From NCBI GenBank assembly GCA_025331445.1, contig JAIWNE010000058.1, positions 124,001-188,000 on the forward strand: a stretch of 64,000 nt of DNA, read 5' to 3'. The notes below the pieces were generated by a model. That model was given only the letters and a program-made list of their open reading frames with translations. It did not search any database and had not been told where the DNA came from. The position numbers and the translations under genes are program-made. Shown in pieces: positions 38,893-62,126 of this stretch (position 1 is the first letter of the stretch; every line of letters begins with the position of its first letter). This DNA comes from Blakeslea trispora. Lineage: Eukaryota; Mucoromycota; Mucoromycetes; Mucorales; Choanephoraceae.

Positions 38893-38914
38893 TATCTTCA
38901 CATACTTATCCGAC

Positions 38915-39100: not shown

Positions 39101-39366
39101 CTAGACCAAGCTGTGTTGAAGTCTCAAAAAGCTCATTGTTATTGATTACTCATGGAAAAGCCAAAAACAATTCAAAATCCTACAAAAGACTCGGAAAAAC
39201 AATCTCAAGCCTAGAAACAATATATCTCTCATTTATTGTTGTAATAAAAATTTGCCAAAATCCAAAAATAGTACCCATTTTGCCCAAAACATCTAAATGC
39301 CAATTTATAATCCTTGTCTGTGAATCAATACAATTATACCTAAAATTATCCCACTTATTTGCTACT

Positions 39367-40682
39367 ATGGAAGAAACTACAATTACTTTGATCAAGAACT
39401 ACCTGACTACTATGGAATATCCGCCTGGTATTAGCAAGAAAGATGAAGCCTATCTTAAGAAGAATTCGTACAAGTTTATCATCCACAATAACATCTTGTA
39501 TCGATTTAATCCTGAAGTCAACTCTGGTTTGAAGAAAGTGCTAACTCCGAATGAAGCAAAGGAAGCAATTATTATGTATCATCATCATCCTTTGGGAGGA
39601 CACTTTGCCTATTCAAACACGCTTCACAAAATATCTCAAAAGTATTATTGGGATAACATGTCAAGATCCATCATGGAATTTATCAAGGAATGCCCTCAAT
39701 GTCAACTCCAAGGAAGCAAGATCAAATCCGAGAGGTTACACCCGATTCCTGTTTCAAGTCCTGCTAAACCCTTTGACCGTGTATCCATTGATGTCAAGCA
39801 TGTGTCCACTTCCCGAATTGGTTCAAGATATATTATTGTTGGTATTGACTATCTGACGAAGTATGTAGAAGTTAGAGCCTTACAGTTTCAAACAACTTCT
39901 GATGTTGCCCTGTTTATATATGAAGATATCATCTGCAGACATGGTTGCCCTCGTTTCATACACACTGACAATGGTAAACCGATGATTTCAGAACTTATTA
40001 AGCAAGTATGCCGACAATACAATATTGTACACAAGACTATTACTCCCTACAACAGCCAAAGTCAAGGTTGGTTGAAAGGTTTAACCGTGTTATTGATCAA
40101 GTACTCCAACGAAGAGATCCTTCTCAAAAGAAAGACTGGGATATGTATCTACAAGCTACTCTATTTGCCTACAGAACTATCAAGCAAGAAAGTACCAAGT
40201 ATTCTCCTTTCTACATGATGTATGGATATGAATCGTCGACTCCGTTTGATAACAATCATCGATTATACAATCCAAAAGATGCAAGCTTTGACTTCGAACT
40301 GACTATCCGCACTTCTCAGCAAATCTTATATCTTAACCGTATCCGTGAACAAGCTATCAAGAACATTGAAACTTCTCAAAAGAATCAAATAAAAAGAATT
40401 GACAAGACCCTCCTGGAAACGACAAGAACTCTAAAACCGCCTTTCAAACTTGGTGACCGTGTACTTCTCTATAAAGATTATCGTTCTACTTCTTGGAGCG
40501 GAAAAATCGAAACTACTTGGGAAGGTCCTTATATTATTCAACATCTACTTGGAAAATCTACTTATCATATCAAGTCCGCTGATCCAGATGATACTCTCTT
40601 GAAACGTGTCCATGGTAATCGACTTAAAATTTATGTTGATAGCCACTCCAAATGGAATCAAATCACCCGAACCTTTATCTGA
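39367..40682 (+). pseudogene. Integrase of element 1 (separate ORF)
   Basis: ATG 39367 (MEETTITLIKNYL) starts an integrase with an HHCC zinc domain (HHHPLGGHFAYSNTLHK ... ECPQCQ), catalytic VSIDVKHVS and RFIHTDNGKPM, and after a 1-2 base frame change at ~40065 the Glu motif LVERFNRVIDQ. The C-terminal part has RVLLYKDYRSTSWSGKIE and TWEGPYIIQHL. No chromodomain is seen. The frame change makes this copy inactive. Confidence 0.85.
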
Positions 40683-40787
40683 TTACTCATTGTTATATTT
40701 ACTTCAAAATTTTATTTGTGATACCTGTCAAAAAAAAAGAAAAATCAAAAAAAAAAAGCTGTAGTTCAAAAAAATTCAAAAAAATAG

Positions 40788-40796
40788 TATATAAAG
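40788..40796 (+). promoter_or_regulatory. Candidate TATA box for the accessory ORF
   Basis: TATATAAAG sits ~93 bp upstream of ATG 40889, followed by a pyrimidine-rich, A/C-rich leader. This is a plausible RNA polymerase II core promoter inside the retrotransposon. Confidence 0.45.
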
Positions 40797-40888
40797 ACAG
40801 TATTTATCCAACATTTACCAAACTTCATTCATTCTTTGAACTACCTTTCTCTCCCCTTACTTACACACTTACACACGCACTTATAAAA

Positions 40889-41536
40889 ATGATGTACTCT
40901 TCAGATTTCGATGATGAGGTCGTTTGCGACAAGAGAGCTTACAGCCCTCAAGTTGACGAAAGGCTGGTCGTTGAAGTTGAGGACAACGTTGTTGCCCCTT
41001 CTGGTCCCTCCCAAATGCAAGGTATCTCGTTTGTGGGTCAAGCCCAAAATCTGTTTGCCAATGCCGACAACCAGCCCGTCACCGCTGAGATCTTTACCGC
41101 CAACATATTCCAACCTACGCCTCTGGATGCCCCTCAAGGCATGATTATCAAAGGCCGCTCCCAACAATGGTATCGCAAGCAAGGCCTCTCCGTCCACTCC
41201 CCAACAAAGCAAGCCCCCCGAAAACGCTCTCAAACTGAGAAAACCCATGCCAAGTTTGCCAAGTGGCTCACCGACTATGAAGAAGTAGTGAAAAAGAGAG
41301 ACGACCTCGTCTCCAAGGCCGCCCGATTCCACCAAGAAATCATTTTGGAGATCGTAAAATACTGTCACCACTTGAATGAGGAACCCGTGTCTCAGAAGAG
41401 CTTCGACTCCTACCAAACAAGATGCGCTGATGTGGTGAAGTCGTTGCTCCGCAACCATTCTCTTATTTACCCCGCTGTAATGAAGGCTGTCCGCAAGGCT
41501 GATCCTTGGTCTCACCCTGGCCCCTTCGAAGAATAA
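40889..41536 (+). CDS. Intact accessory ORF in the env position of element 1
   Basis: A 215-residue protein starting MMYSSDFDDEVVCDKRAY. It has no signal peptide or membrane segment, so it is not an envelope protein. The N-terminal half is acidic/Pro-Gln-rich (SGPSQMQGISFVGQAQN, PTPLDAPQG). A basic patch follows (KQAPRKRSQTEKTHAKFAK), then a likely helical region (LTDYEEVVKKRDDLVSKAA, FDSYQTRCADVVKSLLRNH). Codons favour C in the third position, unlike the AT-rich gag-pol, and the frame is unbroken although gag-pol is damaged. This suggests a captured host gene or separate selection. No family is recognised. Confidence 0.65.
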   Translation: MMYSSDFDDEVVCDKRAYSPQVDERLVVEVEDNVVAPSGPSQMQGISFVGQAQNLFANADNQPVTAEIFTANIFQPTPLDAPQGMIIKGRSQQWYRKQGLSVHSPTKQAPRKRSQTEKTHAKFAKWLTDYEEVVKKRDDLVSKAARFHQEIILEIVKYCHHLNEEPVSQKSFDSYQTRCADVVKSLLRNHSLIYPAVMKAVRKADPWSHPGPFEE

Positions 41537-47108: not shown

Positions 47109-47288
47109 TACTTATAACCTTGCTGCCTGATTGCTCTGTTATATCTATTTGTTCTCTTTCTCAAGTTACTACAAAAACTATCCTTTGTCCTGTAACAAGG
47201 GGATGAGAAGATCGACCTAACAACCATGGGTTAGATGATCAAATCGCGGAATTTACAAAATACGCGACTTATTCCCACCACATTTAAG

Positions 47289-47298: not shown

Positions 47299-47380
47299 CG
47301 TCGCCTGCAGGATTTGAACCTGCGCAGGCAGAGCCTATATGATTTCTAGTCATACTCCTTAACCACTCGGACAAAGCGAC
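47299..47380 (-). tRNA. tRNA-Ser (anticodon AGA)
   Basis: The 82-nt cloverleaf on the minus strand has acceptor arms GTCGCTT/AGGCGAC, a D arm with GTGGTTAAGG, an anticodon stem TATGA/TCATA around loop CTAGAAA (anticodon AGA), a class II variable arm (AGGC-TCT-GCCT) and a T arm GCAGG-TTCAAAT-CCTGC. No intron. A T-run terminator follows. It looks functional. It is flanked downstream by the Tc1/LTR element 1 nest and upstream, from 10 bp before its 5' end, by stacked LTR elements. Confidence 0.95.
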
Positions 47381-47389
47381 TGAACTAAT

Positions 47390-47826
47390 TGTCAAGTCTT
47401 GTTGTGATCCTGATTCTAGGTGGTAAAATTCCTCTTGTCCGCCAGATTTTCGACTCGCACACCCAAAATATTCCGGATGACGTAGACAAAATTGTTAAAG
47501 ACACCCCAGATATTGAAGCGCAGCTGTTAATTACACCCCACTTTTTCTTTTATTTTATTTCTCATTTCTGTCCTGACTTTTATTTCTTATTTTGTTTTCT
47601 CCAATTTGACTCTACTTTATTTTTGATCTACTTTACATTTTCTTTACAAATTTCCTTATATATATTTTACCATTTATATCTTATTTGAATTAGTGTACCA
47701 TTGTACAAGCTATCAGAAAACATATATATATATCTCATTCATATTTTAAATAAAACTTATCGATTACTTACTAGAAAATAATTTGAACCTACTATTTTCT
47801 ATAACCTACTTAAAACATTCTTGTCA
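47390..47826 (+). repeat. Solo LTR E1 (diverged relative of the 48944 element LTR)
   Basis: It starts TGTCAAGTCTTG and ends TTGTCA like the LTRs of the intact element, but is clearly diverged. It is flanked by TAAT on both sides (47386-47389 and 47827-47830), 10 bp upstream of the tRNA 5' end. Confidence 0.85.
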
Positions 47827-47830
47827 TAAT

Positions 47831-48939
47831 TGACGTGTGTCTGATTTGTTGTTGTGTCGCTTTTCGGTACTCTTAAGGTGTCAAGATGCTTGGTATTGTT
47901 GGTATGATTATGAGAAGGTGTAGAAGTTGATTTGTTGTTATGATGAAGAGTAGCTGTCTTTTGGTGTAAGTCTGGATTGTGTTACTTTGGTTGATAAAGT
48001 AATAGCTAGCTACAGTTGTCGCTGTTTGAAGTGCTCAAGTTGATATCGGTGTTCTGATCTCTCTCTCCTTTGTCTATGATTGTTAAATACTCTACATTTT
48101 GTTGTCTTTGAATTGGTAACACACTCTGTCATTGTTTTCGTTCCGTACTTCCTGGTTGTCCTGATTGTACTCTGTTTCTTATTTTTTTTATTGTTTATCT
48201 TTATTTTATTTTTTATTCTGTATTTTATTTATTTTGTATGTTCTCTATATTTTTTTTATTCTTTATTTTCTTTGTTATCTTTAGCTCTGTTGATTATTGT
48301 ACTATCTATATTGGTGTTCCTGATGTTCTGTGGCTATTTTTGTTATTTGAAGTTGGTGTCACTACTAGGTTGATTAGTATCTATTGTTCTCTGATTTACT
48401 GGTGTTACTCTCTTTTTTTGGTCTGATCTGTTGTCAAGAAATTAATTTATGCTTTGAAGTGGCGACCTATTATTTCTGTTATTATGCCAATTGACAGCTT
48501 AGTCTCTATACTTTGGTTACTTCTGTTCACGTTGTCTCTTACTTTGGAGATGCTCTCAAGAAAGTCTGTTAGATCGATGGATCTATTGTTGAAATCACTA
48601 TTGGAATTTATTTTATTGGTGTTTTGTAGAAATTATTGGATTGACTAAGTAATTAGTCTGTCTCTTTAAATAGAGTGCTTCGTGCCTCAATTATTAGAAT
48701 ATTTTATCTTTTATAGATATAACTTTTTCCCAAGTTTTAAAAAAATATACTTACTGTTACCTACTACCTTTAAATTCTGTCTTTAAAGCGTACAAGTGCC
48801 TATTGTCTCTATATTTTCTTATTGTTCTCCCTGTTGTAATTGATAGTCTTTACAGTCTTCTATCTCCCTTTGTATTTCTTTTTGTTGTTTCACTTGTTCG
48901 AATCAAAGGTAAACATACAGGAGGATAATAAAGTTGTCA
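47831..48939 (+). repeat. LTR-like element E2 (1.1 kb)
   Basis: It starts TGACGTGTGTCTG and ends GTTGTCA, between TAAT (47827-47830) and TAAT (48940-48943). It resembles 56420-57338 in several blocks (a TGTGTCGC-TTTCG block near the start; ACAAGTGCCTA, TTTACAGTCTTCT and TCAAAGGTAAACATA near the end). No coding frame of note; long T-rich tracts at 48170-48290. Confidence 0.6.
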
Positions 48940-48943
48940 TAAT

Positions 48944-49397
48944 TGTCAAGTCTTGCTGTGGCTTTGTTCTTTGGTAGGCACAATTCCTTTTGTCCGGCAG
49001 TATTTCGGTCCGCACACTCTCTTTGTTCCGGATGACGTAGACAAAATAATTAAGTGCACCCTAATTATTGAAGCGCAGCTGGTACCTACACCCCATTTTT
49101 CACTTTACCTCTTTGTTTTATTATTTACTTTCTGTTCTCGATTTCACTTTTCTTATTTTTTCAATTTTATTTTCTATTCCCAAATTTATTTTATTTTCTC
49201 GATCCCACCTTTATCTACATTTACTCTATTTTTATTTTTGGTACCTCATCTTATTCGAATTAGTGTATCATCGTACAAACTATTAGAAACAATATATATA
49301 TCTCAATTATATTTTAAATAAACTCCTTATCGATTGCTTACTAGAAAAATATTTCGAACCTGTATTTTTCTATAACCTACTTAAAACAAATTTGTCA
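48944..49397 (+). repeat. 5' LTR of E3
   Basis: 454 bp, TGTCAAGTCTTG ... TTGTCA. It contains TATATATATC and AAATAAACTCC promoter/polyA-like strings near the end. Identical, as far as I can read, to 55098-55551. Confidence 0.95.
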
Positions 49398-49516
49398 AAT
49401 GGGTGAGGCTACCAGGGGTAATTCAAAATTTACAGCTTTCAGTAAAACGATTCAGACTATTTGATACACATTTGAGAGTAACTACAGTGAAGATAATAAA
49501 CAACAAGGATAAAGAA

Positions 49517-50476
49517 ATGACGAATCAAATGCTGGGCCAGTTAATTGAAAAACCTCCAACTTTTACCGGTGAACACGATCTTGGCGAAGGAACGAGATGG
49601 TTGAGGCAGATCGAACGATTGAAACAAGGTTTGAACCTGGCGGACGAAGATATCCTATTTGTCATAGGAAATCGTCTCAGAGGGAGAGCAGCCACTTGGT
49701 GGAACACGCATGAAAAGAAGACGAAGAAGTGGGATGATTTCGTCATTCAATTTAAGAAATCATTTGCACCCGATGAATCGACTATCGATCTATGGTGGAA
49801 TCAGTTGGTCAATTTGAAGCAGCAGAATGATCAGTCAGTGGAAGACTTGAAAATACAAATCAAAGATTTGTGTAATTCATTAGAAGCAGCTGAAGAAGCA
49901 GTATCCGAGACGTACAAAATCAGACATTTCAGAAAAGCTTTGAAGAGAGATATTTTGTATGAATTAGATAGAGCACCGATCTCAGTTAGAGACAACTGGG
50001 AATTGATGATCAAAGAATGCAAGAGAATAGAAACAAACTTTAAAAGATACGATATCATCGACGATGAAAGCTTTCATGGAATCATTAATAAGGCCATACA
50101 GCATAAAGTTAACAATACTCATCACCAAGGTCAACATTCTAATAATGCGACATCTTCGAACGCTGGATCAATAGACGATTTTAGTACAGTGATCAGAGAA
50201 CTTGCACAAGAGATGAAAGAATTGAAGATTAGCCTTAGCAACAATGAATCACTGCATAATGCGCAAGGCAGTAATTATAGTAGACCGGCAAATGGATACA
50301 GCAATTATCGCAACAACAATTACGCATATAATCCTAACAATATCAGATGCTGTGTATGTGGTAGAATGGGCCACAAAGCTGTGCAATGTAATAGCAATGT
50401 CAGACAAAACGAGTACAGTAACCAAGATGCCCTTAACAACGGACAAATGCAGGGAAAAGAGAAAGGACAACAGTAG
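49517..50476 (+). CDS. gag: Gag of E3
   Basis: 319 residues from ATG 49517 (MTNQMLGQLIEKPPTFTGEH), the first ATG of the long frame. The capsid region shows Ty3/Gypsy-type strings (WLRQIERLKQGLNLADEDI, GRAATWWNTHEKKTKKWDDF, QFKKSFAP). An Asn-rich linker leads to one CCHC zinc knuckle CCVCGRMGHKAVQC (C-X2-C-X4-H-X4-C). A short upstream ORF at 49399-49464 may lower initiation. The last codons overlap a frameshift signal, and TAG is at 50474-50476. Confidence 0.9.
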   Translation: MTNQMLGQLIEKPPTFTGEHDLGEGTRWLRQIERLKQGLNLADEDILFVIGNRLRGRAATWWNTHEKKTKKWDDFVIQFKKSFAPDESTIDLWWNQLVNLKQQNDQSVEDLKIQIKDLCNSLEAAEEAVSETYKIRHFRKALKRDILYELDRAPISVRDNWELMIKECKRIETNFKRYDIIDDESFHGIINKAIQHKVNNTHHQGQHSNNATSSNAGSIDDFSTVIRELAQEMKELKISLSNNESLHNAQGSNYSRPANGYSNYRNNNYAYNPNNIRCCVCGRMGHKAVQCNSNVRQNEYSNQDALNNGQMQGKEKGQQ

Positions 50477-53421
50477 ATGAGTATGAAACTGTTGTCCAAA
50501 ACAAGAACATGAATACTCAAAACAACAAAAACGACAAAAATTTACAAAAAAATGCTAATACTAACACAAAAATTAACGCAGTAATGGTAGTACCTGAATT
50601 TGAAGAAGATTATGATGATACACCAAACGATATTTACAAAATAACTAAAAGAGGACGTGAGCAGAATTCAGATCCTTCCATAAGAGGAGATAATGAGGAA
50701 ATGAGGAATCAGCAAAGAAAAACAAATGTACCTCAAAACCCTATTCCAGTTATACAACAAGGTGCACAGCCAATATCTGCAGTACCACCACATGATCAAC
50801 AACATTTTTATCCACATTTGCTACCACAACCTTCTACCTCACAAATGCCAAGAGCGTTGCAATTTACACAACCTATACAACCCGTTCAACATGTACAACC
50901 CATCAATATGGAAGTAGCATCGAACAAAGCAACATCAGGAAAGAAACCAAAACCAAAAAGATTGAGAGCACCGCCTAGAAAAATACCTGTGACTCAAGAT
51001 AATGTGAACTCTGATATTTGGAAGAAATTGGGTGAAACCACCATAGAAGTGCCATTCAAAGAGTGGATCATCAATAACAAAGAAGCACAAAGAGATCTCA
51101 GAGATGGTACAAGATTTTTATTAGGCAGAAGGGTTACTAATACTAAAAATAAGAAGGGGGCTGCAGTAGTGACAAATAATAAAGGAAAAGAAAGGGAAGT
51201 GGTACACCCGCAGACTAACATGATAGAAATCAATAAGGTGTCTAATGTTCAAGATGAAGAGTCAAGTTACTATGATGATACTGAACTCTCTGAAAGCGAT
51301 GCATATACTTCTTCGGCTAGTTACGATACTGAAGGTGTTATTGATGAAGAATACTCTCAGGATGATATGGACTCCGATAGTGATGACACCGAGTACGAGT
51401 ACCCTTATAACCTGAACGATATGAAGCGTTCTACACCATTAAGAGCTCCTATTACTATCCATGACCAACAAATTGAAGCTATCTTTGATTCCGGTGCTTC
51501 TGTATCTCTGATAAGTCGTGCTCTTGCAAAAAGATTAAGGTTACTGCCTAATGGAGATACCATACCGATCGCCAGTGTAGATGACAAGAAAAACTCTAAT
51601 TTGAGAAATGACCCTCGATGTAGATCCGATATTACCTCGTTTGTTCCCATAAGAGTAGCTGGCAAATTAAGATCAGAGCATATGGTAATCAGTGATGACT
51701 GTGGTGATGATACTTGCATCCTAGGTATGACTTGGTTCAAGCAATATGGTATATCTCAACAATTGAAAGATGATATTATAATCATCCCTACTAAAGGTGG
51801 AAGGTCGAGAGTATTACTGCAAGGAAAAAGCTCGGTTGAAAAACCAGTAAAACAAGCCAAAATCTATACTGTATCTGTTAGGGAAATTGGTGATGAAGCA
51901 CAAGATAAATCTCTTAATCAATTTCACAAGCTTGTGACATATGACGAAGAGATCGTAAGTGAGAATGGTAGTGATGATGCATATTCTTTTATAGAAGTTG
52001 TAGATTCAAAAGATAAGGAAGAAGAAGAAATACATCCACGTATCAAGATCCTATTAGATAGGTTTACGAATAGTTTCGCAGAAAACGCAGGCCTGGGAAA
52101 GGTATCAAAAGAATATGAACATGCTATCGAGTTGACAGATCCGAATGAAACTATCAAGGCTAAGCCATACCGACTTACTTGGGAGGAAGATGCTCAATTG
52201 AAACAAGAATTACAAGAACTGTTGGATAAGGAGCTTATCAGACCATCTAGAGGTAGATGGACATCGCCAGTATTTTTTGTTCAGAAGAAAGACAAGGGCC
52301 TTAGATTAGTAGTGGATTTCCGGAAGCTTAATAAGAACACTAGAAAGGAAAACTATCCTTTGCCTCATATCAATGAATTACTCGATTCTCTCGGTGGTGC
52401 TGCGGTATTTTCTACTTTAGACGCTGCTTCAGGATATTGGCAGGTGCCTATGCACGAAGATTCGATTGAAAAGACGGGGTTTATCACCAAATATGGGACT
52501 TATGAATTCCTTGTAATGCCTTTCGGTCTATGTACTGCTAGTGATACTTATCAAAGAATGATGTCGCAATTAATGGCACCCTTCATTGGCAAATTTGTGT
52601 TTGTCTTTATAGATGATATTATCGTCTACTCAAGATCCATGGAAGACCACATAATTCATTTGGGTAAAATATTCGAAACATGTAATGCCGCTAACCTCAA
52701 GTTCAAAAGATCAAAATGCCATTTTGCTAGAAATCAAGTAGAATATTTAGGTCATGTAGTCTCTGCGACTGGTGTGCTTCCAACTACGCGGAATGTCTCT
52801 AAATTACTGAATATGAAGACCCCCACTGGCGTTTCTGAGGTTAGATCCTTATTGGGTACCACGAACTACTATAGACGGTACATCCAGGACTATGCTATGC
52901 TCATGAGACCGATTACCAAGCTTTTAAAGAAAAATAGCACTTTTGTATGGGAACAAGAACAAGAGGAGGCCTTTATTCAAGTAAAGAATCTACTATGTAA
53001 TCCACCCGTACTATCTTATCCAGATGAAGAACAAGTGCAAATATTGACAACTGATGGCTGTAGTACTGGAGTCGGTGCTATTCTTTCCCAATCACCCGAT
53101 GGATCTAACAAGAAAGAAACAGTTATTGCTTACGCTTCTAAGGCACTTAAGGCGACTGAAAATAATTGGACGACTACTGAAATTGAAGCATATGCTTTGA
53201 TTTGGGGTGTCAAGTACTTCAGACACTATTTGGCAGGAAGAAACAGACGATTCATATTATATACGGATCATTCAGCCTTGGCCTTTATACTCAATAATAA
53301 CAAACCAACACCAAAAATTAGTCGATGGGCAGCTGCACTGATGGAACATAACTACGAAATCAGGTATAAACCAGGAAAGAGTAACCCTGCGGATGCTCTA
53401 TCTAGATTGATCCAAAAGTAA
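50437..53421 (+). CDS. pol: Protease-RT-RNase H polyprotein of E3 (pol part 1)
   Basis: Probably made as a gag-pol fusion by -1 frameshifting; the first in-frame ATG is at 50509 (970 residues from there). Numbered from that ATG: a disordered Gln/Pro-rich region (1-150), a Lys/Arg patch (~125-145), an acidic segment (~255-300), aspartic protease AIFDSGASVSLIS (Asp ~327), RT with SPVFFVQKKDKGLRLVVDFR, DAASGYWQVPM and the catalytic FIDDIIVYS (Asp 702-703), then RNase H TTDGCSTGVGAILSQ (Asp ~849), TEIEAYALIWG and YTDHSAL, ending NPADALSRLIQK with TAA at 53419-53421. The frame is unbroken. Confidence 0.92.
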   Translation, partial: QRTNAGKRERTTVDEYETVVQNKNMNTQNNKNDKNLQKNANTNTKINAVMVVPEFEEDYDDTPNDIYKITKRGREQNSDPSIRGDNEEMRNQQRKTNVPQNPIPVIQQGAQPISAVPPHDQQHFYPHLLPQPSTSQMPRALQFTQPIQPVQHVQPINMEVASNKATSGKKPKPKRLRAPPRKIPVTQDNVNSDIWKKLGETTIEVPFKEWIINNKEAQRDLRDGTRFLLGRRVTNTKNKKGAAVVTNNKGKEREVVHPQTNMIEINKVSNVQDEESSYYDDTELSESDAYTSSASYDTEGVIDEEYSQDDMDSDSDDTEYEYPYNLNDMKRSTPLRAPITIHDQQIEAIFDSGASVSLISRALAKRLRLLPNGDTIPIASVDDKKNSNLRNDPRCRSDITSFVPIRVAGKLRSEHMVISDDCGDDTCILGMTWFKQYGISQQLKDDIIIIPTKGGRSRVLLQGKSSVEKPVKQAKIYTVSVREIGDEAQDKSLNQFHKLVTYDEEIVSENGSDDAYSFIEVVDSKDKEEEEIHPRIKILLDRFTNSFAENAGLGKVSKEYEHAIELTDPNETIKAKPYRLTWEEDAQLKQELQELLDKELIRPSRGRWTSPVFFVQKKDKGLRLVVDFRKLNKNTRKENYPLPHINELLDSLGGAAVFSTLDAASGYWQVPMHEDSIEKTGFITKYGTYEFLVMPFGLCTASDTYQRMMSQLMAPFIGKFVFVFIDDIIVYSRSMEDHIIHLGKIFETCNAANLKFKRSKCHFARNQVEYLGHVVSATGVLPTTRNVSKLLNMKTPTGVSEVRSLLGTTNYYRRYIQDYAMLMRPITKLLKKNSTFVWEQEQEEAFIQVKNLLCNPPVLSYPDEEQVQILTTDGCSTGVGAILSQSPDGSNKKETVIAYASKALKATENNWTTTEIEAYALIWGVKYFRHYLAGRNRRFILYTDHSALAFILNNNKPTPKISRWAAALMEHNYEIRYKPGKSNPADALSRLIQK
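50452..50497 (+). promoter_or_regulatory. -1 ribosomal frameshift signal (slippery heptamer plus hairpin)
   Basis: In the gag frame the heptamer reads G-GGA-AAA (50452-50458), a canonical X-XXY-YYZ site. After a 6-nt spacer (50459-50464) comes GGACAACAG (50465-50473), a 15-nt loop, then CTGTTGTCC (50489-50497): a perfect 9-bp stem. The -1 frame is open from 50437, crosses the gag TAG, and joins the pol frame in phase. Confidence 0.85.
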
Positions 53422-53729
53422 TATTTATTAACAAAAAAAAAAGAAAAGAAAAGAAAAGACTACAAAAAAAAAGGAAAAGAATACAAAAAAAAACTTTTGG
53501 TAGGACATATTATTATTAAAAGAATGGGGATGGTTGGCGGGATTGTATGAATATCACTTATATTTTACCTTATATTTATTTTTATATTTTACATTTTGTG
53601 TTTGTATTACTACTACATTTTATTTTCACCTTATCCTTGTACTCTATTTTATTTCGCATTTTACCTTCTATCTCTCTTGTTGTTACTTACCTTTTATTAC
53701 ACTTAACTTTCTAGCTTGTTTTTGGTACT
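53422..53729 (+). other. Untranslated gap between RNase H and integrase
   Basis: 308 bp: first purine-rich (repeated AAAAGAAAAG and AAAAAAAA), then ~170 bp of T-rich, pyrimidine-rich DNA ending TTTCTAG at 53706-53712, 17 bp before the integrase ATG. The second half looks like a polypyrimidine tract and 3' splice site. No in-frame donor that would fuse RNase H to integrase was found. Confidence 0.5.
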
Positions 53730-55067
53730 ATGGACTATCCAGAATATGTTGCCCTGTATTACTACATCACTCGAGGAACACTGCCTACTGATTGTGATCC
53801 CAAGAATGCAAGAAAAATTAAGAACAAATCTAAGAAATACTTGGCTCACAAAGGAAAATTGTTCAGGAAGGTGATAGATATCGAAACTGATGATATTCTT
53901 CTCGGTCAAGAATTGCTCCATGAGGGTAATATCGATGATGTTATCACCAAGGTTCACAAGGAAGGTCATCATGGTATCAAGAATACATATCATAAATTGA
54001 AGATCCAATATGAAGGTAAAAAGATGCACGAAAGGATGGTAGATATTGTGAAGGCATGTGAAATGTGTCAGAAGCGACAGATTACGCCAAAAAGGAAAAT
54101 CATCAAGATGCATCCGATACCAACGCCTCGAAAACCATTTTTCATGATCGGTTTAGATGCCGTGGGTCCAATAGAAGAAGAGGGAAATGATTTCAAATAT
54201 ATGTTGGTGTGTGTAGATTATTTGACAAGATGGCCAATTGCTGCTGCTGTACGGGATATTACTGCGCTTACAACTGACAGGTTTCTGTATAACTACGTAT
54301 TTATGCATCATGGAATACCTACATATCTACTGACTGACAGAGGTACTTCTTTCAAAGCAGAGTACATTGATCATATCTTGAAGAATTTGGAGTGTCGTCA
54401 CTTGATCACTTGTGCTTACCGTCCTCAAACTAATGGAATGGTGGAAAGAATGAATCAAACACTCGTACAAACAATCGCCAAACTCAAGATGGATGACCAA
54501 TTCCCAAAGAATTGGAATGCCTACATCAACAACGCCCTTTTTGCTATTCGTACTATGGTGAATGACTCAACTGGTTATAGTCCAGCTATGTTGTTATATG
54601 GATACGAATTGCGTACTCCTGCTACTTGGTCTGCCCCACGTTATGATTATGTTGAGGGTGAAATAGAAGAAGAAGTGAAACGTCGTATACTAGATATTGA
54701 CAAACAAATGGATGCTTTGAGAAATGATGCTGTGAAGAAGTCTATGGACAAAAAGAAGAAGATGAAACAACGATATGATCAAGACGTAGTAGAAAGAAAG
54801 TACTTCAAGGTTGGTGACTTAGTGCTCATGAAAGATCATGTACCCAAAGACAAGTTCGCGTCAAAATGGTTGGGTCCTTTTGAAGTAGTCAAGGTGAATC
54901 AGAACCACACGTATCATTTGGTTGGCAAGAATTCCAGACGTTTAGAAGATGCGGTAAATGGTCATTACTTGTTGCCATTTCACATGTCTTCCAGATTTAT
55001 TCCTGAAGTGAATCAGAAATCCAAGATCAATGATATAGAAGTCTGGTTAGAGAAGCAAAAGACATAA
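53730..55067 (+). CDS. Integrase of E3 on a separate ORF
   Basis: 445 residues from ATG 53730 (MDYPEYVALYYYITRG). HHCC zinc domain: His76, His80, Cys110, Cys113. Catalytic core: Asp143 (IGLDAVGP), Asp203 (LTDRGTSF), Glu239 (MVERMNQT), giving the D,D-35-E spacing. The C-terminal part has a Lys-rich helix (KKSMDKKKKMKQRYD) and the motif FKVGDLVLMKDHVPK ... KWLGPFEVVKV. No chromodomain is evident. The adjacent stacked insertions at a tRNA gene suggest it recognises a Pol III complex, as Ty3 integrase does in yeast; this is inference. Confidence 0.92.
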   Translation: MDYPEYVALYYYITRGTLPTDCDPKNARKIKNKSKKYLAHKGKLFRKVIDIETDDILLGQELLHEGNIDDVITKVHKEGHHGIKNTYHKLKIQYEGKKMHERMVDIVKACEMCQKRQITPKRKIIKMHPIPTPRKPFFMIGLDAVGPIEEEGNDFKYMLVCVDYLTRWPIAAAVRDITALTTDRFLYNYVFMHHGIPTYLLTDRGTSFKAEYIDHILKNLECRHLITCAYRPQTNGMVERMNQTLVQTIAKLKMDDQFPKNWNAYINNALFAIRTMVNDSTGYSPAMLLYGYELRTPATWSAPRYDYVEGEIEEEVKRRILDIDKQMDALRNDAVKKSMDKKKKMKQRYDQDVVERKYFKVGDLVLMKDHVPKDKFASKWLGPFEVVKVNQNHTYHLVGKNSRRLEDAVNGHYLLPFHMSSRFIPEVNQKSKINDIEVWLEKQKT

Positions 55068-55097
55068 AAAGGAATTCTACCTCTGTTGTGGGGGGTT

Positions 55098-55551
55098 TGT
55101 CAAGTCTTGCTGTGGCTTTGTTCTTTGGTAGGCACAATTCCTTTTGTCCGGCAGTATTTCGGTCCGCACACTCTCTTTGTTCCGGATGACGTAGACAAAA
55201 TAATTAAGTGCACCCTAATTATTGAAGCGCAGCTGGTACCTACACCCCATTTTTCACTTTACCTCTTTGTTTTATTATTTACTTTCTGTTCTCGATTTCA
55301 CTTTTCTTATTTTTTCAATTTTATTTTCTATTCCCAAATTTATTTTATTTTCTCGATCCCACCTTTATCTACATTTACTCTATTTTTATTTTTGGTACCT
55401 CATCTTATTCGAATTAGTGTATCATCGTACAAACTATTAGAAACAATATATATATCTCAATTATATTTTAAATAAACTCCTTATCGATTGCTTACTAGAA
55501 AAATATTTCGAACCTGTATTTTTCTATAACCTACTTAAAACAAATTTGTCA
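55098..55551 (+). repeat. 3' LTR of E3
   Basis: 454 bp, indistinguishable by eye from the 5' LTR. Confidence 0.95.
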
Positions 55552-55556
55552 TAATT

Positions 55557-56416
55557 TGTCGTCTTGATATATCATGAGGATGTTTAGACTAGATCACGTG
55601 ATAGGAGTTAAGCTTTTGAGCCAATAGGATCACTGGAAAAGCTTGACGTAGACAACTGTGTTTTATATTGTAAGTCTAAGATCTTTTTATTTTATTTTAT
55701 ATTTCTTTTACAAATATGTTACCTGTGTTTTATATTGTAAGTCTAAGATAAAGAGCTTACAATATTCGACACCACGGTATTTATACTTTTCTATTTGACT
55801 AAATATTGATACTATTATAAATAAAGAAGGAAGCAATTATATACTCGAAGATGATTGAGTGTTGTGTCTTGACGAATCGATTGACAGTCTGACTTTTCTT
55901 AAATGTAATAGCTTCATACTAATCAAGTTGAGTCGGGTCTTCTTTCTTTTCTTGTTCAACAATTGATGTTTAAACCTTCGCTTATTTGGATTGTATTTGT
56001 AAGGAAGGTTGTACTCTACTTTAATTGGTTGTTTATGCTTAGTATCGCTATTTTCTACGACAAATTTGTCGTGCCTGTCAGTAGCAATGAGCGTATTAGT
56101 AATCAAGAAGAAGTACTCCAATTTATTAGAAGTTGGAACAAGTCTAAGAAGAAGGCATTTAAGCCAAACGTACAAGTAAAAAGATATATCAAGCGAAGAA
56201 GAACAACTGTAGGCGAAGAGTCTACAAAATCAAGTAGATCAAACAGATTCAATTCAGACTCCGAATAATAGAATAAGAGAGAGCATCAAATGCATTTGAA
56301 TAAAAATTATCTTTCATCTGGTTTACTTTAAAAAGTTTACAACAAGGTCTTTATAAATCATAGTAAAGTCTTCCCTACTGTCTTCTGGTAAGTCAAGCTG
56401 GTAGTATAACGCAGCT
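55557..56416 (+). repeat. Putative LTR-like element E4a
   Basis: It starts TGTCGTCTTGAT just after TAAT (55552-55555, plus one T) and may end CTTGAC(A) before AAAT/TGATAC at ~56417. It contains a duplicated TGTGTTTTATATTGTAAGTC block (~55658 and ~55727). A short frame at 56090-56268 has a Lys/Arg-rich peptide (RYIKRRRTTVGEE). The assignment as a separate LTR is tentative. Confidence 0.4.
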
Positions 56417-56419
56417 TGA

Positions 56420-57338
56420 CAAATTGATACATGTCGTATTTTGTTTTGTGTCGCCTTTCGTTCTATTTGTGGTTGTAATGGTGTTGAGTTCGAGATTAGT
56501 GATGTTGAACAAGTTGGTGTTGAAGTGTGATGAAGAAGAAAAAGCCTGTCAAAGAAAAATTTGTGTCTTCTGGTCGGAAAATCAATTGGTTAGGAATAGA
56601 AATGGCTGTGAGTGTCTATCAAGTAGGCCTATTACTGGTGTTGGAGTGTTGCCTATTCCCTTCGTTGCTTGTGTTACTACTATTTCCTTTGCATTCATAT
56701 CATCATCATTATTGTTCATATCATTTTTCTGTTTCTCTTATTTTTATTTTATTTTAATTACTATTTTTATTTATTCTCTTTGTATCTCTATGTATTCCAT
56801 TCCTTTATTTTATTTTTGTTCTTTTCCCGTTTATCTTGTATCTCTTGTGGTAACCTCGTGCTCTTGCCGACTCTCGGTGTTGTTAAGAAGAAGTCAATTG
56901 AATGTGAGTTCAATTTATTGTCAAGTACAAGGTTACATCCTGTCAAGAATGATTGTGTTGCTTGGTGCAACTTAGACCCTGTCGGTGATCATTGTCAAAA
57001 AAAAATATTTAACAAAAAAAAAGGGTAACTCTAGAAACTGAAGGCGCTCGAATATTGATTGTAACAAGAAGTAACTGTGTGGTGTAAATTACTTGAAGTA
57101 TAAGTAATGTCTCTATTTTTATCATTGTAATAAACAACCTCTTTCTTTTACTTTTCCTGATTTACATACTTCTTCAATTTCCTTTTTGAAGCTAACAAGT
57201 GCCTAAATCCATATTATTCTCTGCAGATAATTACGACGTAGTCTTTTACAGTCTTCTACTGAATATTATATCATTTGTGTTTATTTTTGTGAAGTCAAAT
57301 ATCAAAGGTAAACATAAGAGAGAATTATACCACTGTCA
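56420..57338 (+). repeat. LTR-like element E4b, relative of E2
   Basis: It starts TGATACATGTCG and ends ACTGTCA, followed by TAAT (57339-57342). It shares several ordered blocks with E2. It is non-coding; T-rich tracts occur at 56690-56860. Confidence 0.5.
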
Positions 57339-57342
57339 TAAT

Positions 57343-57794
57343 TTGTCAGGCCAGCTATAGTAGATAGCAGTAACGAAAGTGCGAAGAAAGCACTACACCT
57401 CACCCGTGTCGGACGCACGTCGGACACGTGCGGCTAACATGTGCTTATTTTTCCAACTTTTGATTTTGACTATTAAAATTGCTGTTTTTTTTGCAGAAAT
57501 GTAGATGTATCTTCTAGGCTTCCAAAACTTCTTACAAATTTAAAATTGGATGTATATTCATAAAGTTATTACCATTTACATTTCTTTTATCATTTCACTG
57601 TTTAAAGAAATTTCGCTCTTTAAATTTTTTGGCAGTGATTTTTTCTCTGCCTAAGATTTTGAAGCAACTTGATTTTCTTAATGCTGAGGAGTTTGAAATG
57701 TCTTGTCATTTTTTCTTCAAAAAATACAAAGACCTGAAAAATCACTGCTTAAAAAATTGGAAAATACTTTCGGAAACGAGAAAATTTGTCTTTT
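57343..57794. other. Unassigned sequence with a GC-rich palindromic island
   Basis: It begins TTGTCAGGCC, possibly the start of one more LTR. At ~57403-57433 a GC-rich run contains GTGTCGGACG and CGTCGGACACGTGCGG, near-palindromic in otherwise AT-rich DNA. No gene seen. Confidence 0.35.
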
Positions 57795-57804
57795 AGACAT
57801 TAGA

Positions 57805-57915
57805 TTACCAAATAAGACAGTGTAATATATATGCTTGTGATCTTCTCTTTATTTAATGTCAGCGAAAAATATAAAATTTTTCTCTAATCTAATATATAAC
57901 AAATTGATCTTCTAA
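57805..57915. repeat. Left inverted terminal repeat of the DIRS element
   Basis: About 110 bp that match the inverse of ~61968-62079, with scattered differences (for example AAAATTTTTC versus AAGTTCTTC). Confidence 0.88.
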
Positions 57916-57949
57916 GCGAGTATAAAGGGTAAGGGAGGGAGGGCCTATT

Positions 57950-58064
57950 ACACTGTCTTATTTGGTAATCTAATGTCTAAAAGACAATTCTGAGTGTCGA
58001 AATAAATTTCTCTCAGAATTTATTGAGACCACGATTACCAAATAAGACAGTGTAATATATATGC
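57950..58064. repeat. Internal complementary region of the DIRS element
   Basis: The first part (57950-57988) is the inverse of 57797-57832. The second part (57989-58060) is the inverse of the right end 62055-62126. Their junction predicts the joined ends of a circular intermediate. Confidence 0.85.
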
Positions 58065-60233
58065 TTATCCAGAGACAAGTTCTTCCTGATGTTCCACAGC
58101 ATCAAAGAATGCATCATCTTCTTCCAAAAAATTAGACTCAATAGTAAAGGAGGAAGCAGGAGCTACAGGAAGGAGAGTGTTGGTAAAATCAAATTGAGCG
58201 AGATGTTCCCGACGATAATGATTTTCAAAGACAGAATCGTTTGACCAGTTCCCCATGGTAACGATATCCTCTCTTGGAACACCACGCTTGAGGGCTAAGG
58301 ATGAGGCCAAGGAGCGAACTGATATGCGACTGTCCGTAGTAGAGCAAGAAAGAAAATTTCGGAGCCAAATTCCAATGGTGCGATCCACTAAGTGGGAGGA
58401 AGGAGACTTAGTGTGTACAAAGAGGAGGGAGCAGGAAGCATGGCGCCTATTTCTCAAGGGCAAGAAGATCCGAAGCGTATCCACGGGGCAAAGGAAACGG
58501 TCTTGATGAGGTTTTACCTCGTAAGACTTGATGATACGACGGCCTGCTCGTTTCTCTTTTGGACCCACCACCTCAAAAGAAAGCACACCCGAAACCGAGT
58601 CGATGACCAGGGACGAAAAGGGAATGCGATTCAAATCGGAAGGGCGCAGAAAGCAAGTAAACGCCAAAAGAAAAGCAAGCTTGCGTTGGCAAGAAGACAA
58701 AGTAGAAGTCAACGATTGTCGGAGCAAGGTAAAAGTGGGAGTCAAATCCACAGTTGGTTTGTGCAATCGGACAGGAGGAGCTCGAGCCTTTTGAGAGCGT
58801 AAGAACACGGCTATGTCTGCACTGTTGCGAATGGTCGCCGGGTCACGATGCAGGTGAGTTACTGCCGTACGAGCCAGAAGAAGAGTTGCCACTTGATAGT
58901 TCTTGTACAGTTTGAGATCCGCCAAGAAATTGATCATGTCGACCGGAGAATAGCTGTTGGAGGAAATGCCATGATAGTAAGCCCAACGAAGGAAATGATG
59001 ATGATGCGGACGGTAGGAGCGGTTGGTAGGTGTATCCGCCAGAAGTGTATCCATCATTATCTTTCTAGCATCTTTCCCTAATGCAATGGAGGTCTGGAAG
59101 CGAGACCGGATAGCCTCCATACGGAGAGTCTCCAGCTGCTGTTGGCTAAGGGATGAGCAGTCAAAGGGGTTGTCACTTGGACGCTGTCGTTTGGGAGCAG
59201 TAGTGGCTGATCGACACTCAATTGGAGGGGCAGAGGGAACCAGAGTGCTTGCGTCCAAAGAGGGACTACCAATGTGGCAAATGGCACTTGATCGAAGCGA
59301 ATCTTCTCCAGACATCTCGAGATCAGGTTCCAAGGTGGATGCATAAATGGGTTTACGAAGTTGGACCAGTTCATCGTGAATGCATCTGTCCAGATCGACC
59401 CCGGATCCGGTAACCACGCTACGTATTTTGGGAGGAGGTGGGTCGTCCTGTCGGCGAAGAGGTCTATATCGTGAGGACCCCATGCCTGTTGGATTCGATC
59501 GAATATCCTTGGTTTCAACATCCATTGATTCTTCAAAAATATTCGGCGGGACTCGTAATCTGCAGCTTGATTCTCCAAACCAGGTATGTGGCGAGCCAAC
59601 AACAGTATACCCCTCTGGAGACACCACTTCCAAAGATGGATGGCTAGCTGCATCAATGGTACTGACCTGGTACCTCCTTGTTTGTTGATATAGGCCAGAG
59701 AGGTTGTGTTGTCTGTCCTGACCAAAATAGTCATGTTGTTGAGGTCTTGAAAAGTTTGGAGAGCTAGATGGGCCGCCTTCAACTCTCTCCAGTTGATTGA
59801 CATATCTGCCTCTTGTGGGGTCCAGAAGCCGTACGCCGTCCTTGGAGGAAGAGTGTCCTGTGGAGGTACATAGCAACCCCAACCTGTGTCGCTTGCATCC
59901 ACATAGATGGTCTGATCCGGAGTCTGTGGAAGAATGCTCCGGCCATTCCAAGAGGAGAGGTTGTCTTGCCACCATTTCAACTCCTTGAGGCACTCTTTCG
60001 GAAGGGAGAGAGGAATATCCCAGTCGGCCTTGTTGTGAACCGATAGGTTCTTCGTCTGTAGTAGGTACCGGGTATACAAGCGAGCTGGGAGGACTGCAAA
60101 CGTAGCTGCTTGTATCCTCATGGTGAGACTGTGAATTACCCGTGGTGACTGGATAGGATTTCGTATTACCTGTTGGATGGATCGGCGTAAATCGCGCAAC
60201 TTTTTGGTAGGCAAACGAGCAGTCATGGAGCAA
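58065..60233 (-). CDS. Tyrosine recombinase ORF of the DIRS element
   Basis: The recombinase domain occupies roughly residues 340-722. A SAM-like N-terminal core-binding region (PHHHHFLRWAYYHGIS, LYKNYQVATLLLARTAVTHL) leads to the catalytic domain: Arg in CFLRPSDLNRI, the second Arg in RISVRSLASSLAL (the usual His two before it is replaced by Ser), and the nucleophile Tyr673 in FENHYRRE. An acidic tail ends at 58065. The upstream ~385 codons (60233-59080) stay open while overlapping the RT-RNase H gene in another frame; overlapping RT and recombinase frames are typical of DIRS1. The true start is unknown. Confidence 0.85.
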   Translation of the reverse strand: MLHDCSFAYQKVARFTPIHPTGNTKSYPVTTGNSQSHHEDTSSYVCSPPSSLVYPVPTTDEEPIGSQQGRLGYSSLPSERVPQGVEMVARQPLLLEWPEHSSTDSGSDHLCGCKRHRLGLLCTSTGHSSSKDGVRLLDPTRGRYVNQLERVEGGPSSSPNFSRPQQHDYFGQDRQHNLSGLYQQTRRYQVSTIDAASHPSLEVVSPEGYTVVGSPHTWFGESSCRLRVPPNIFEESMDVETKDIRSNPTGMGSSRYRPLRRQDDPPPPKIRSVVTGSGVDLDRCIHDELVQLRKPIYASTLEPDLEMSGEDSLRSSAICHIGSPSLDASTLVPSAPPIECRSATTAPKRQRPSDNPFDCSSLSQQQLETLRMEAIRSRFQTSIALGKDARKIMMDTLLADTPTNRSYRPHHHHFLRWAYYHGISSNSYSPVDMINFLADLKLYKNYQVATLLLARTAVTHLHRDPATIRNSADIAVFLRSQKARAPPVRLHKPTVDLTPTFTLLRQSLTSTLSSCQRKLAFLLAFTCFLRPSDLNRIPFSSLVIDSVSGVLSFEVVGPKEKRAGRRIIKSYEVKPHQDRFLCPVDTLRIFLPLRNRRHASCSLLFVHTKSPSSHLVDRTIGIWLRNFLSCSTTDSRISVRSLASSLALKRGVPREDIVTMGNWSNDSVFENHYRREHLAQFDFTNTLLPVAPASSFTIESNFLEEDDAFFDAVEHQEELVSG

Positions 60234-60958
60234 CTGTCTAGAAGAAAACCCAGATGTTCTAGAGTTTGGGAGGGTTCAAACACTGATTTCTTCGCATTGA
60301 CTAGCCAGCCCAAATCTTGCAGCTTTTGTAGGACCAGTTGAGTCTGCTGAGATACCAGGGATTTGGAGTCTGCAATAATAATCAGGTCGTCCAAATACAT
60401 GCTCAGGCGAATTTGTTGCGATCTGGCCCAATCCAAAAGAGGTTTTGTCAGCTTGGTGAACAGGAAGGGAACCACCGACAAACCAAACGGGGTAGTTGTA
60501 AATTGGTAGGTTTGATCTTGCCAATTGAACCGTAGGAAACGACGAGACGAAGGGTGAATTGGAATGTGGAGAAAGGCATCTGAAAGGTCTATCGAAGTCA
60601 TCCAGTCGTTGGGTTGAAGCAAGTGACAGACTTCTGAGATGGTCTCCATCTTGAAGGAGGGACAGTCGAGATAGCGATTGAGAGCTTTCAAATTGAACAC
60701 GGGTCGACTGCCGCCATTCTTTTTGGGTATTACAAACATTGAGCTGAAGAAGCCTGGTTGTAGGTCTGAGAGAGGAACTTTCTCGATGGCATTCTTCTGA
60801 AGCAGAGACGTAATCTCCTGGTCTAAAAGAAGTTTCTGCTCCGGGTTGTAACATATGATGGGTGTTCCTTGATGAGAGGTGGAAGGAGAGGAGTGGAAGG
60901 GCAGGCGGAACCCGTCTTTTACGACGGAGACTATCCAATCTGCTTTGCAAATCTCCAT
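59078..60958 (-). CDS. Reverse transcriptase-RNase H of the DIRS element
   Basis: 626 residues from the first ATG (60958); the frame is open further upstream through GRLSRFVSAW and overlaps the gag end in the -1 frame. RT motifs: SSMFVIPKKNGGSRPVFNLK, MTSIDLSDAFLHIPIH, FTTTPFGLSVVP, and MYLDDLIIIAD (Asp190-191). RNase H: IYVDASDTGWGCYV, INWRELKAA, LVRTDNTTS, and QAADYESR. The DIRS-specific C-terminal extension follows (DIDLFADRTTHLLPKYVAW, TLVVPLWTQALWFP). No break seen. Confidence 0.92.
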   Translation of the reverse strand: MEICKADWIVSVVKDGFRLPFHSSPSTSHQGTPIICYNPEQKLLLDQEITSLLQKNAIEKVPLSDLQPGFFSSMFVIPKKNGGSRPVFNLKALNRYLDCPSFKMETISEVCHLLQPNDWMTSIDLSDAFLHIPIHPSSRRFLRFNWQDQTYQFTTTPFGLSVVPFLFTKLTKPLLDWARSQQIRLSMYLDDLIIIADSKSLVSQQTQLVLQKLQDLGWLVNAKKSVFEPSQTLEHLGFLLDSCSMTARLPTKKLRDLRRSIQQVIRNPIQSPRVIHSLTMRIQAATFAVLPARLYTRYLLQTKNLSVHNKADWDIPLSLPKECLKELKWWQDNLSSWNGRSILPQTPDQTIYVDASDTGWGCYVPPQDTLPPRTAYGFWTPQEADMSINWRELKAAHLALQTFQDLNNMTILVRTDNTTSLAYINKQGGTRSVPLMQLAIHLWKWCLQRGILLLARHIPGLENQAADYESRRIFLKNQWMLKPRIFDRIQQAWGPHDIDLFADRTTHLLPKYVAWLPDPGSIWTDAFTMNWSNFVNPFMHPPWNLISRCLEKIRFDQVPFATLVVPLWTQALWFPLPLQLSVDQPLLLPNDSVQVTTPLTAHPLANSSWRLSVWRLSGLASRPPLH

Positions 60959-61008
60959 CCAGGCAGAAACGAACCTGGACAGACGTCCCCCGACCTCTGA
61001 CGTGCCAT

Positions 61009-61935
61009 CTACTGGCGATTGTTCTTGATGAACGGATTGGTGTTGGGTTTGTGTTGTGTTCCTTGGGAACGGTTGCCGTGGCGTTGTCCATGGCTTCTGG
61101 TGTTGTTCGAGAACCCGCCCTGACCCATGGGCGGACCTGCTCGAAAAAACGGATTGTTAGAAGTAGCGCCAGTGTTGTTGCTACTATTAAAGCTGGGTTG
61201 ACCCGAATTGTTGTTCTTGCGACGATTGCGCTGCAAGAAGGATGAAGCTTCTCGCATGGTTTTCTGGGCGGCAGATTGATGCGAAACAGCATCCGTGAAA
61301 CTTTCAGGCGACATCAGATAGTTATGTGTGTCATTGGTGGCAGCCTTGAAAGCCGGATGAACAGCTCGAAAGTTGATGTCCAGTCGAGAGGACGAAATAG
61401 TCGAACTGACGTTCAACAACAACGTACGAACATCTGCCAAGATAGCAATGAAGCGTTGAGTTTCCTCCATAGGAAGGTTAGTGGTGCATATTTCACTACC
61501 CAAAATATCCAAAGGGCAAAATACTCCAGAAATCAAATATCGGAGGTTGCGCAAAGTAGCATCCTCTTGAGCCTGGCCCTTGTTCATTTTGCGTCTTGAA
61601 TCGGGCATTGTCTGTGGTGGCTGATAATTAGTGTTGCTCATAGGAGGATATGTGTCAATAATGGAACCCCTTTCATCGTCTGTGAGTGTGGTACTTTTAA
61701 ACAGATTGCGATCTAAACCGAGGCTACTCTGCACTTCCACATCAGGCGTCCATTCAAATCGAGGACAAACCCCAAAGGAGTGTAAGGTTGAGGTCTCACC
61801 AGAATCCTGTGACCCCTTGTCACCCCTGAGTGCCGATTGTTCTTGTGCTACAAGCAGTCCTTTCAGCAACTGTTGCGTTTCTTCCAATTGGTTCTTTAAA
61901 AAGCTAAAATCTTCGTCTGAAGGCATGATAGTCAT
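61009..61935 (-). CDS. Gag-like protein of the DIRS element
   Basis: 308 residues from ATG 61935 (MTIMPSDEDFSFLKNQLEET; the next ATG is 61926). An N-terminal coiled coil (FLKNQLEETQQLLKGLLVAQ) is followed by a helical core (MEETQRFIAILADVRTLLLN, INFRAVHPAFKAATNDTHN) and a Gln/Asn/Gly/Arg-rich tail (RNRRKNNNSGQPSFN ... MGQGGFSNNTRSHGQRHGN). No zinc knuckle. It lies just inside the right inverted repeat. Confidence 0.8.
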   Translation of the reverse strand: MTIMPSDEDFSFLKNQLEETQQLLKGLLVAQEQSALRGDKGSQDSGETSTLHSFGVCPRFEWTPDVEVQSSLGLDRNLFKSTTLTDDERGSIIDTYPPMSNTNYQPPQTMPDSRRKMNKGQAQEDATLRNLRYLISGVFCPLDILGSEICTTNLPMEETQRFIAILADVRTLLLNVSSTISSSRLDINFRAVHPAFKAATNDTHNYLMSPESFTDAVSHQSAAQKTMREASSFLQRNRRKNNNSGQPSFNSSNNTGATSNNPFFRAGPPMGQGGFSNNTRSHGQRHGNRSQGTQHKPNTNPFIKNNRQ

Positions 61936-61967
61936 TTTCCAAGCGGTAATGTCCAGACGAGCGAAAA

Positions 61968-62079
61968 AGAAGATCAATTTGTTATATATTAAATTAGAGA
62001 AGAACTTTATATTTTTCGCTGACATTAAATAAAGAGAAGATCACAAGCATATATATTACACTGTCTTATTTGGTAATCG
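61968..62079. repeat. Right inverted terminal repeat of the DIRS element
   Basis: Inverted partner of the left repeat. It probably carries the promoter and leader for the minus-strand genes. Confidence 0.88.
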
Positions 62080-62126
62080 TGGTCTCAATAAATTCTGAGA
62101 GATATTTATTTCGACACTCAGAATAT

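Follow-up and report, generated by a model that had tools for sequence, protein, structure and literature searches.

Stacked long terminal repeat and CACTA elements beside transfer RNA genes of the Mucorales fungus Blakeslea trispora

Why should elements with long terminal repeats (LTRs) lie head to tail in front of one transfer RNA (tRNA) gene, each parted from the next by the same four letters? The question is raised by a 64,000-nucleotide stretch of the Blakeslea trispora genome (assembly GCA_025331445.1, 37.2 Mb in 285 contigs; contig JAIWNE010000058.1, positions 124,001 to 188,000; hereafter the window), in which ARAGORN found a single tRNA gene, tRNA-Ser(AGA), on the minus strand at 47299-47380. 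An initial annotation of the window proposed that LTR families had integrated repeatedly at one base pair just upstream of this gene, duplicating TAAT each time and pushing older copies outward into a time-ordered record. That elements integrated repeatedly at a single base pair, give or take one, and duplicated 4 bp on each occasion is strongly supported by the two observations that could most readily have spoken against it, the tetramers found at other copies and the position of repeat boundaries relative to tRNA genes. We consider it very probable that successive Ty3-like integrations at the tRNA-Ser start region, together with separate zones of CACTA elements and long interspersed nuclear elements (LINEs), reflect guidance by the RNA polymerase III (Pol III) complex rather than by DNA sequence.

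The stack at tRNA-Ser and its repeated tetramer

All five TAAT copies described for the array are present (47386-47389, 47827-47830, 48940-48943, 55552-55555 and 57339-57342; strand not applicable), and each lies at an LTR boundary. The proposed spacing of about 10 bp from the tRNA gene holds for the first LTR, which begins at 47390, 10 nt upstream of the tRNA 5′ end, whereas the first TAAT itself begins at 6 nt. The innermost unit is a solo LTR, A' (47390-47826, plus strand, 437 bp, TGTCAAG...TTGTCA), with 92-96% identity to four other full copies, one of which lies at a tRNA-Thr gene with its own tetramer, TATC. Beyond the A'/B junction follows solo LTR B (47831-48939, plus strand, 1109 bp, TGACGTG...GTTGTCA); B has 41 matches in the genome (40 of 60 candidates scored), about ten of them copies or pieces at 96-99%. 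The B/A junction leads into A, a full-length element of predicted Ty3 type (48944-55551, plus strand), whose two LTRs (48944-49397 and 55098-55551) are 454 bp each and identical to each other.

The TAAT of the A/C junction overlaps an AATT at 55553-55556, which is the duplication belonging to the next unit, the LTR-like unit C (55557-56421, plus strand, TGTCGTC...TTGACA). Relatives of C begin approximately 7-11 nt from tRNA-Asn, -Lys and -Gln genes. The distal copy of its duplication, AATT at 56422-56425, gives its last T to the start of the LTR-like unit B2 (56425-57338, plus strand, TGATACATG...CTGTCA), and the TAAT at 57339-57342 closes the stack; a copy of B2 at 98.2-98.6% stands in a second stack, at tRNA-Phe (C280). 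The initial annotation had placed a decayed AAAT at about 56417. That part was mistaken: the sequence there is an intact AATT, equal to the one at 55553-55556, and a decayed TAAT is ruled out in favour of an exact duplication shifted by one base. Such a shift recurs at a tRNA-Asn gene (L036), with the tetramer ATTT. Similarly, the rule that elements end in TGTCA at the boundaries has to be amended for C, which ends in TTGACA.

TAAT is a common tetramer, occurring 339 times in the window, and directly after GTCA or GACA 7 times, of which 4 are at stack junctions. Even so, it is scarcely conceivable that the LTR ends include it as a fixed part or that it matches by chance. Within element A, AATGGG comes after the 5′ LTR and GGGGTT before the 3′ LTR, as annotated, and neither internal LTR end carries TAAT. 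Critically, elsewhere the same families are flanked by TCTT, TATC, TTAT, GATT, AGAA or ATTT, and these copies rule out TAAT as a component of the LTR; CATT is also among the locus-specific tetramers. TCTT flanks A on both sides in the tRNA-Phe stack, TATC lies on both sides of A' at tRNA-Thr (C33), and TTAT on both sides of B at tRNA-Pro, with a third TTAT after the next unit. A hand tabulation of the complete A, A' and B copies for which both flanks had been read gave identical 4-bp flanks in 10 of 11, the exception (C24) having tetramers one base apart. This tally excludes copies with one flank and an interrupted B copy on C278 with GTGA on both sides.

An array of this kind might also arise from a single insertion through segmental duplication or recombination between LTRs. 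The solo LTRs suggest that LTR recombination occurs, and the LTRs of A and A' are related (73%). However, the units come from different families (A, B, C and B2), every unit has its own flanking 4-bp copy, and the equivalent stacks at other tRNA genes carry other tetramers, leaving such an origin extremely unlikely.

LTR elements at tRNA genes across the genome

Element A contains gag, aspartyl protease, reverse transcriptase (RT), RNase H and integrase domains (Pfam) in Ty3/gypsy order, the order also found in Ty3 of Saccharomyces cerevisiae (and in Ty3p), and from its sequence it is classed as Ty3-like. Among solved structures in the PDB, the Ty3 polyprotein 7q5b is the best relative of its integrase; for the RT, 7q5b is second by a narrow margin to 4ol8, which we take to be the RT of Ty3. 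The Ty3 match stops at residue 423 of the 450-residue open reading frame (ORF), so a counterpart of the vestigial Ty3 chromodomain is probably absent. The primer binding site region (49398-49420, plus strand) shows, by eye, a 16-nt complementarity to the 3′ end of tRNA-Arg(ACG) with one extra G, a primer unlike that of Ty3. The integrase is 78% identical to a Rhizopus arrhizus protein (highest match 82%), and its closest named relatives are from Rhizopus and other Mucorales. Integrase matches in the B. trispora genome (94 scored of 279 candidates) include a closer group, at 41-82%, on 10 contigs; six of the 10 also have B-type LTR matches, which suggests that the B-type LTRs belong to the same clade.

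The window holds a second gypsy-type element at 34426-41536, with RT and RNase H at 37981-38889; no tRNA gene was found nearby.

To describe spacing we used 69 tRNA genes, comprising all 57 covariance-model matches and 12 tRNA-bearing hits of a tRNA-Ser query. They are a sample of the tRNA genes of the genome, since the covariance-model search scored 63 of 1905 candidates. The tRNA-Ser query included about 60 LTR bases; hits to this flank alone were dropped, and so were four tRNA genes (L050, L051, L074 and L108) that had come up solely in LTR searches or through the flank. At 25 of the 69 genes, similarity to another fetched place begins 7-13 nt upstream, about 19 of these cases being firm by eye and the remainder resting on few weak matches. 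The bin from 7 to 12 nt holds 25 loci, against 4-8 per bin across 13 to 42 nt, and repeat boundaries are thus enriched immediately upstream of tRNA genes. The A' LTR starts 10 nt upstream of tRNA-Ser, -Thr and -Ala, while A itself was met only within stacks. For 5S rRNA genes, 2 matches were found, too few to judge whether they serve as targets. At two tRNA-Trp genes (L012 and L013) the LTR seems reversed, its 3′ end toward the tRNA, so that orientation is not absolute.

Most units of the stack adjoin another LTR, and elements might therefore select TAAT or existing LTR ends, with the tRNA gene incidental. Against this, the tetramers vary by locus, the sequence after the second TATC of the A' copy at tRNA-Thr has no LTR-like start, and boundaries cluster at 7-13 nt from tRNA genes. 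The varying tetramers and the clustering lead us to reject TAAT or LTR ends as the real target, and we regard such targeting as very unlikely.

Under the mechanism that we favour, integration guided by the Pol III complex, a new element would land upstream of the tRNA coding sequence, at a distance of about 10 bp, and duplicate the same 4 bp, TAAT or, one base over, AATT. Each arrival would displace earlier elements outward, and most copies would later be reduced to solo LTRs. By analogy with Ty3, the integrase may be led to its site by TFIIIB, an initiation factor of Pol III. B, C and B2 would derive from elements similar to A.

A CACTA element upstream and a LINE downstream

A single T separates the last TAAT from an older LTR-like unit, F, whose first 47 bases remain (57344-57390, plus strand, TGTCAGGCC...; judged by eye). 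Starts similar to F adjoin, also by eye, the L054 and L071 copies and tRNA-Ala L080. Unit F is cut by the tRNA-facing end of a CACTA element, X1 (57391-57786, plus strand, CACTACACC...), which shares 92-96% identity with the X1 ends near other tRNA genes. X1 is itself broken by a DIRS-like element on the minus strand (57787-62126; label by eye) and continues from approximately 62127. The DIRS-like element has inverted repeats near its ends and overlapping ORFs, with an RT domain in that at 59078-61156; the ORF at 58065-60272, by eye a tyrosine recombinase, matched no Pfam family. Because the DIRS-like element is nested inside X1, it is ruled out as the element that keeps a distance of about 56 bp. 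With the stack removed, the coordinates put X1 57 bases from tRNA-Ser.

This distance recurs at other genes. The motif CACTAYA starts at position 52-59 upstream of 15 of the 69 tRNA genes, against 0.15 expected from its frequency elsewhere in the same upstream sequence. We used only this count, since the peak of similarity boundaries at 49-60 nt mixes CACTA ends with short common upstream motifs. The sequence at the insertion point varies between genes and is often that of an LTR, of one family or another; what the insertions have in common is therefore distance, not sequence.

The best 40 of 117 candidate X1 ends were also taken as the starting point, and flanks were fetched for 37 (the remaining three being the window copy, tRNA-Phe L088 and tRNA-Thr L038). 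Ten of the 37 lie 55-58 nt from an intact tRNA gene, 9 directly behind another CACTA end, and 11 at 46-50 nt past an LTR-like start, a rule with a background of 17.5%. The other 7 fit no class, although three of them, by eye, stand at about the same distance behind truncated tRNA or tRNA-like sequence.

X1 has the terminal inverted repeats CACTACA and TGTAGTG. At C280 a copy splits a B2 LTR between 3-bp duplications of GTG, with the ends CACTACA...TGTAGTG. Far ends were fetched for 20 copies, giving 19 scripted pairs of which 15 were comparable and 4 were not; in 8 of these 15 further pairs the 3-bp flanks are identical, and 6 of the 20 far ends have a further CACTACA end two to four bases beyond them. 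The genome contains 148 matches to Transposase_21 (tnp2-type, CACTA), a few of them below the cut-off, and by coordinates this domain falls within long X1 copies at tRNA-Thr (C18) and tRNA-Tyr (C139), where it might belong to another nested element. Most paired copies are about 3 kb, and the one that was read has no long frame. From the termini, the 3-bp duplications and Transposase_21 it follows that X1-type elements are CACTA (En/Spm) elements. In the printed tRNA flanks no far end of the C280 type was seen facing a tRNA gene (by eye, for X1 ends).

Taken together, these data make it probable that a CACTA transposon keeps to about 56 bp upstream of tRNA genes irrespective of local sequence, apparently turning the same end to the gene, and that its copies line up head to tail at this mark. 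Among DNA transposons it would be the first known case of guidance by a Pol III complex and not by target sequence. Ty3-like elements at -10, this transposon and the downstream LINEs would then make every tRNA gene of B. trispora a three-zone platform with a readable relative chronology.

The downstream zone is occupied by LINE Y. The repeat TGTTACAGGACAAAGG starts 31-133 nt past the tRNA 3′ end at 26 of 40 genes, the 40 being those of the 69 with enough downstream sequence. At tRNA-Ser a 5′ end fragment of LINE Y lies at 47109-47197 on the minus strand, beginning about 102 nt past the 3′ end of the tRNA. The C56 copy of LINE Y reads, in the direction of the tRNA, into two ORFs. The first (ORF1 at L018) matched no Pfam family and has, by eye, zinc-knuckle-like motifs; the other, of 1291 residues, has RVT_1 and a weak zf-RVT match below the cut-off. 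The position and orientation of LINE Y, downstream and on the tRNA strand, are those of the dictyostelid element TRE3, a LINE of the zone 40-150 bp downstream of tRNA genes. Convergence is as likely as descent to account for the likeness of LINE Y to the dictyostelid TRE lineage. Attachment to the Pol III complex, and not to sequence, best accounts for all three zones, LTR, CACTA and LINE.

Several observations weigh against guidance by the Pol III complex as a full account. None of the three element types was present in the sequence read at 30 of the 69 tRNA genes, and 11 loci have an unexplained additional boundary at 5-6 nt. A crude test of tetramer recurrence scored 7 across 28 candidate loci, where 1000 shuffles had a mean of 2.5 and a maximum of 8, and on its own is therefore weak. 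The duplications are 4 bp, compared with 5 bp for Ty3 and for Tj1 of Schizosaccharomyces japonicus. For X1, 7 of the 15 scripted pairs and the C18 pair lack identical 3-bp flanks. Finally, selection could contribute to the pattern, since the preference is deduced from surviving copies.

Some other loci drew attention in the course of these comparisons. At four tRNA genes (L022, L079, L087 and L032; tRNA-Met, -Thr, -Phe and -Lys) about 400 bp of upstream sequence is 96-99% identical up to the coding start, ending in GCGAAAGAAAAG, and no LTR or CACTA ends were recognised in it. At L046, L057, L116 and L133 a repeated unit starting approximately GTCTAATATAGGCTTTTGAGG has LTR or CACTA insertions at about the usual distances; neither ARAGORN at its usual settings nor Rfam reported a tRNA in it, and the unit is possibly the relic of a tRNA or a Pol III gene of another kind. 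Rfam applied to 14 loci gave 4 tRNAs and two weak mir-299 matches below the cut-off. Truncated tRNA pieces at L111, L139 and L051 (by eye, about the first 20 bases of tRNA-Leu, -Phe and -Asp) still have elements at about the usual distance; the pieces at L111, L117 and L139 were judged by eye. CACGTG and CCGGAC-type motifs occur about 50-70 nt upstream of many tRNA genes, in apparently native regions (45-75 nt, by eye), and are possibly a regulatory site. Pfam searches with 6 other ORFs of the window returned no family for 4 of them.

Order of the layers and relation to known systems

How far can the stack be read as the time-ordered record that was proposed? Two steps can be placed. X1 is older than the five LTR units, since its usual distance from the gene (57 nt) is restored only when they are omitted, and C is younger than B2, since the C duplication uses the first base of B2. 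TAAT alone does not reveal in which order A', B and A arrived. The expectation that age rises with distance likewise survives in part: A' has 1 private change in 437 positions, B has 1 in 1107 and the LTRs of A have none, while B2 and C, dated by their nearest copies only, differ from these by about 1.4% and 1.8%. The private-change comparison omitted short A' fragments (the C130 5′ end and C169) and partial B copies (C278 and C78), and one B copy, C161, is an outlier with 27 private changes.

Targeting may be genuine without the stack being a strict time series, if some of its units entered at outer junctions. A is the sole intact unit and has identical LTRs, yet it lies third from the tRNA. 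This placing requires that the insertion of B and A', and the loss of their internal parts, be very recent, or else that A came in at an outer junction. Moreover, the orders A then C and C then A would leave the same junction letters, and the one-base shifts indicate that the site is not absolute. On the other hand, the single private changes in A' and B allow both to be as young as A, C uses the first base of B2, and the CACTA distance is restored only with all five inner units omitted. We regard entry at outer junctions as unlikely, though far from negligible. Successive integration next to the tRNA gene remains the preferred reading, and a strict chronology of the stack is plausible and partly shown.

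The retrotransposons listed as targeting tRNA genes, Ty3, Tj1, Tyl3, Ylt1, Tyl6, DGLT-A, TRE5 and TRE3, belong to ascomycete yeasts or dictyostelids (PMC5911963, Table 1). Ty3 inserts 1-4 bp from the Pol III start (PMC5911963), and insertion here, measured from tRNA ends, likewise appears to fall within a few bases of the start. Its duplication is 5 bp (PMC8632968) rather than the 4 bp found here, and, unlike the situation described for Ty3, several families use the B. trispora site. Tj1 similarly inserts 5-11 bp upstream of mature tRNA 5′ ends, with a 5-bp duplication in place of 4 bp, and the accessible part of its description mentions no stacks (PMC4600332). In Rhizopus oryzae, Ty3/gypsy elements often co-localise with tRNA genes, and LINEs, DIRS and En/Spn elements are listed; as far as the accessible text of that account goes, distances, duplications, stacks and a CACTA position are not given (PMC2699053). 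Since Ty3-like targeting is known and co-localisation has been described in Rhizopus oryzae, the LTR part of our findings represents a known habit in a known host group, from which the 4-bp duplication differs.

The closest parallel to the zones is in dictyostelids, where DGLT-A, TRE5 and TRE3 occupy the same three positions, with LTR elements at about 15 bp and elements of a second kind at about 50 bp on the upstream side, and LINEs about 100 bp downstream (PMC5006619, PMC5911963), and where several elements can enter at one tRNA gene (PMC5006619). However, the -50 zone of this distant host group is filled by LINEs, whereas in B. trispora it is held by a CACTA DNA transposon. Dada DNA transposons, like the CACTA element, target tRNA genes (PMC3706591, PMC8869645). 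They insert into the RNA gene itself, while the CACTA elements of B. trispora lie outside it, at a fixed distance and in target sequences that are unrelated. A literature search, mostly of titles and the openings of abstracts with few subscription papers, found no DNA transposon at a set distance from tRNA genes, and a distance-keeping CACTA transposon at these genes appears to be new.

These results add a Mucorales fungus, in detail, to the hosts of tRNA-gene targeting, and a DNA transposon to the retrotransposons that show it. Since the insertions keep their own duplications and a fixed distance, the layers give relative orders of insertion that can be checked between strains. Three unrelated machines, an LTR integrase, a cut-and-paste transposase and a LINE, seem to read one host complex at three distances and, if this is true, they would provide a natural ruler with which to gauge how large the Pol III initiation complex is.

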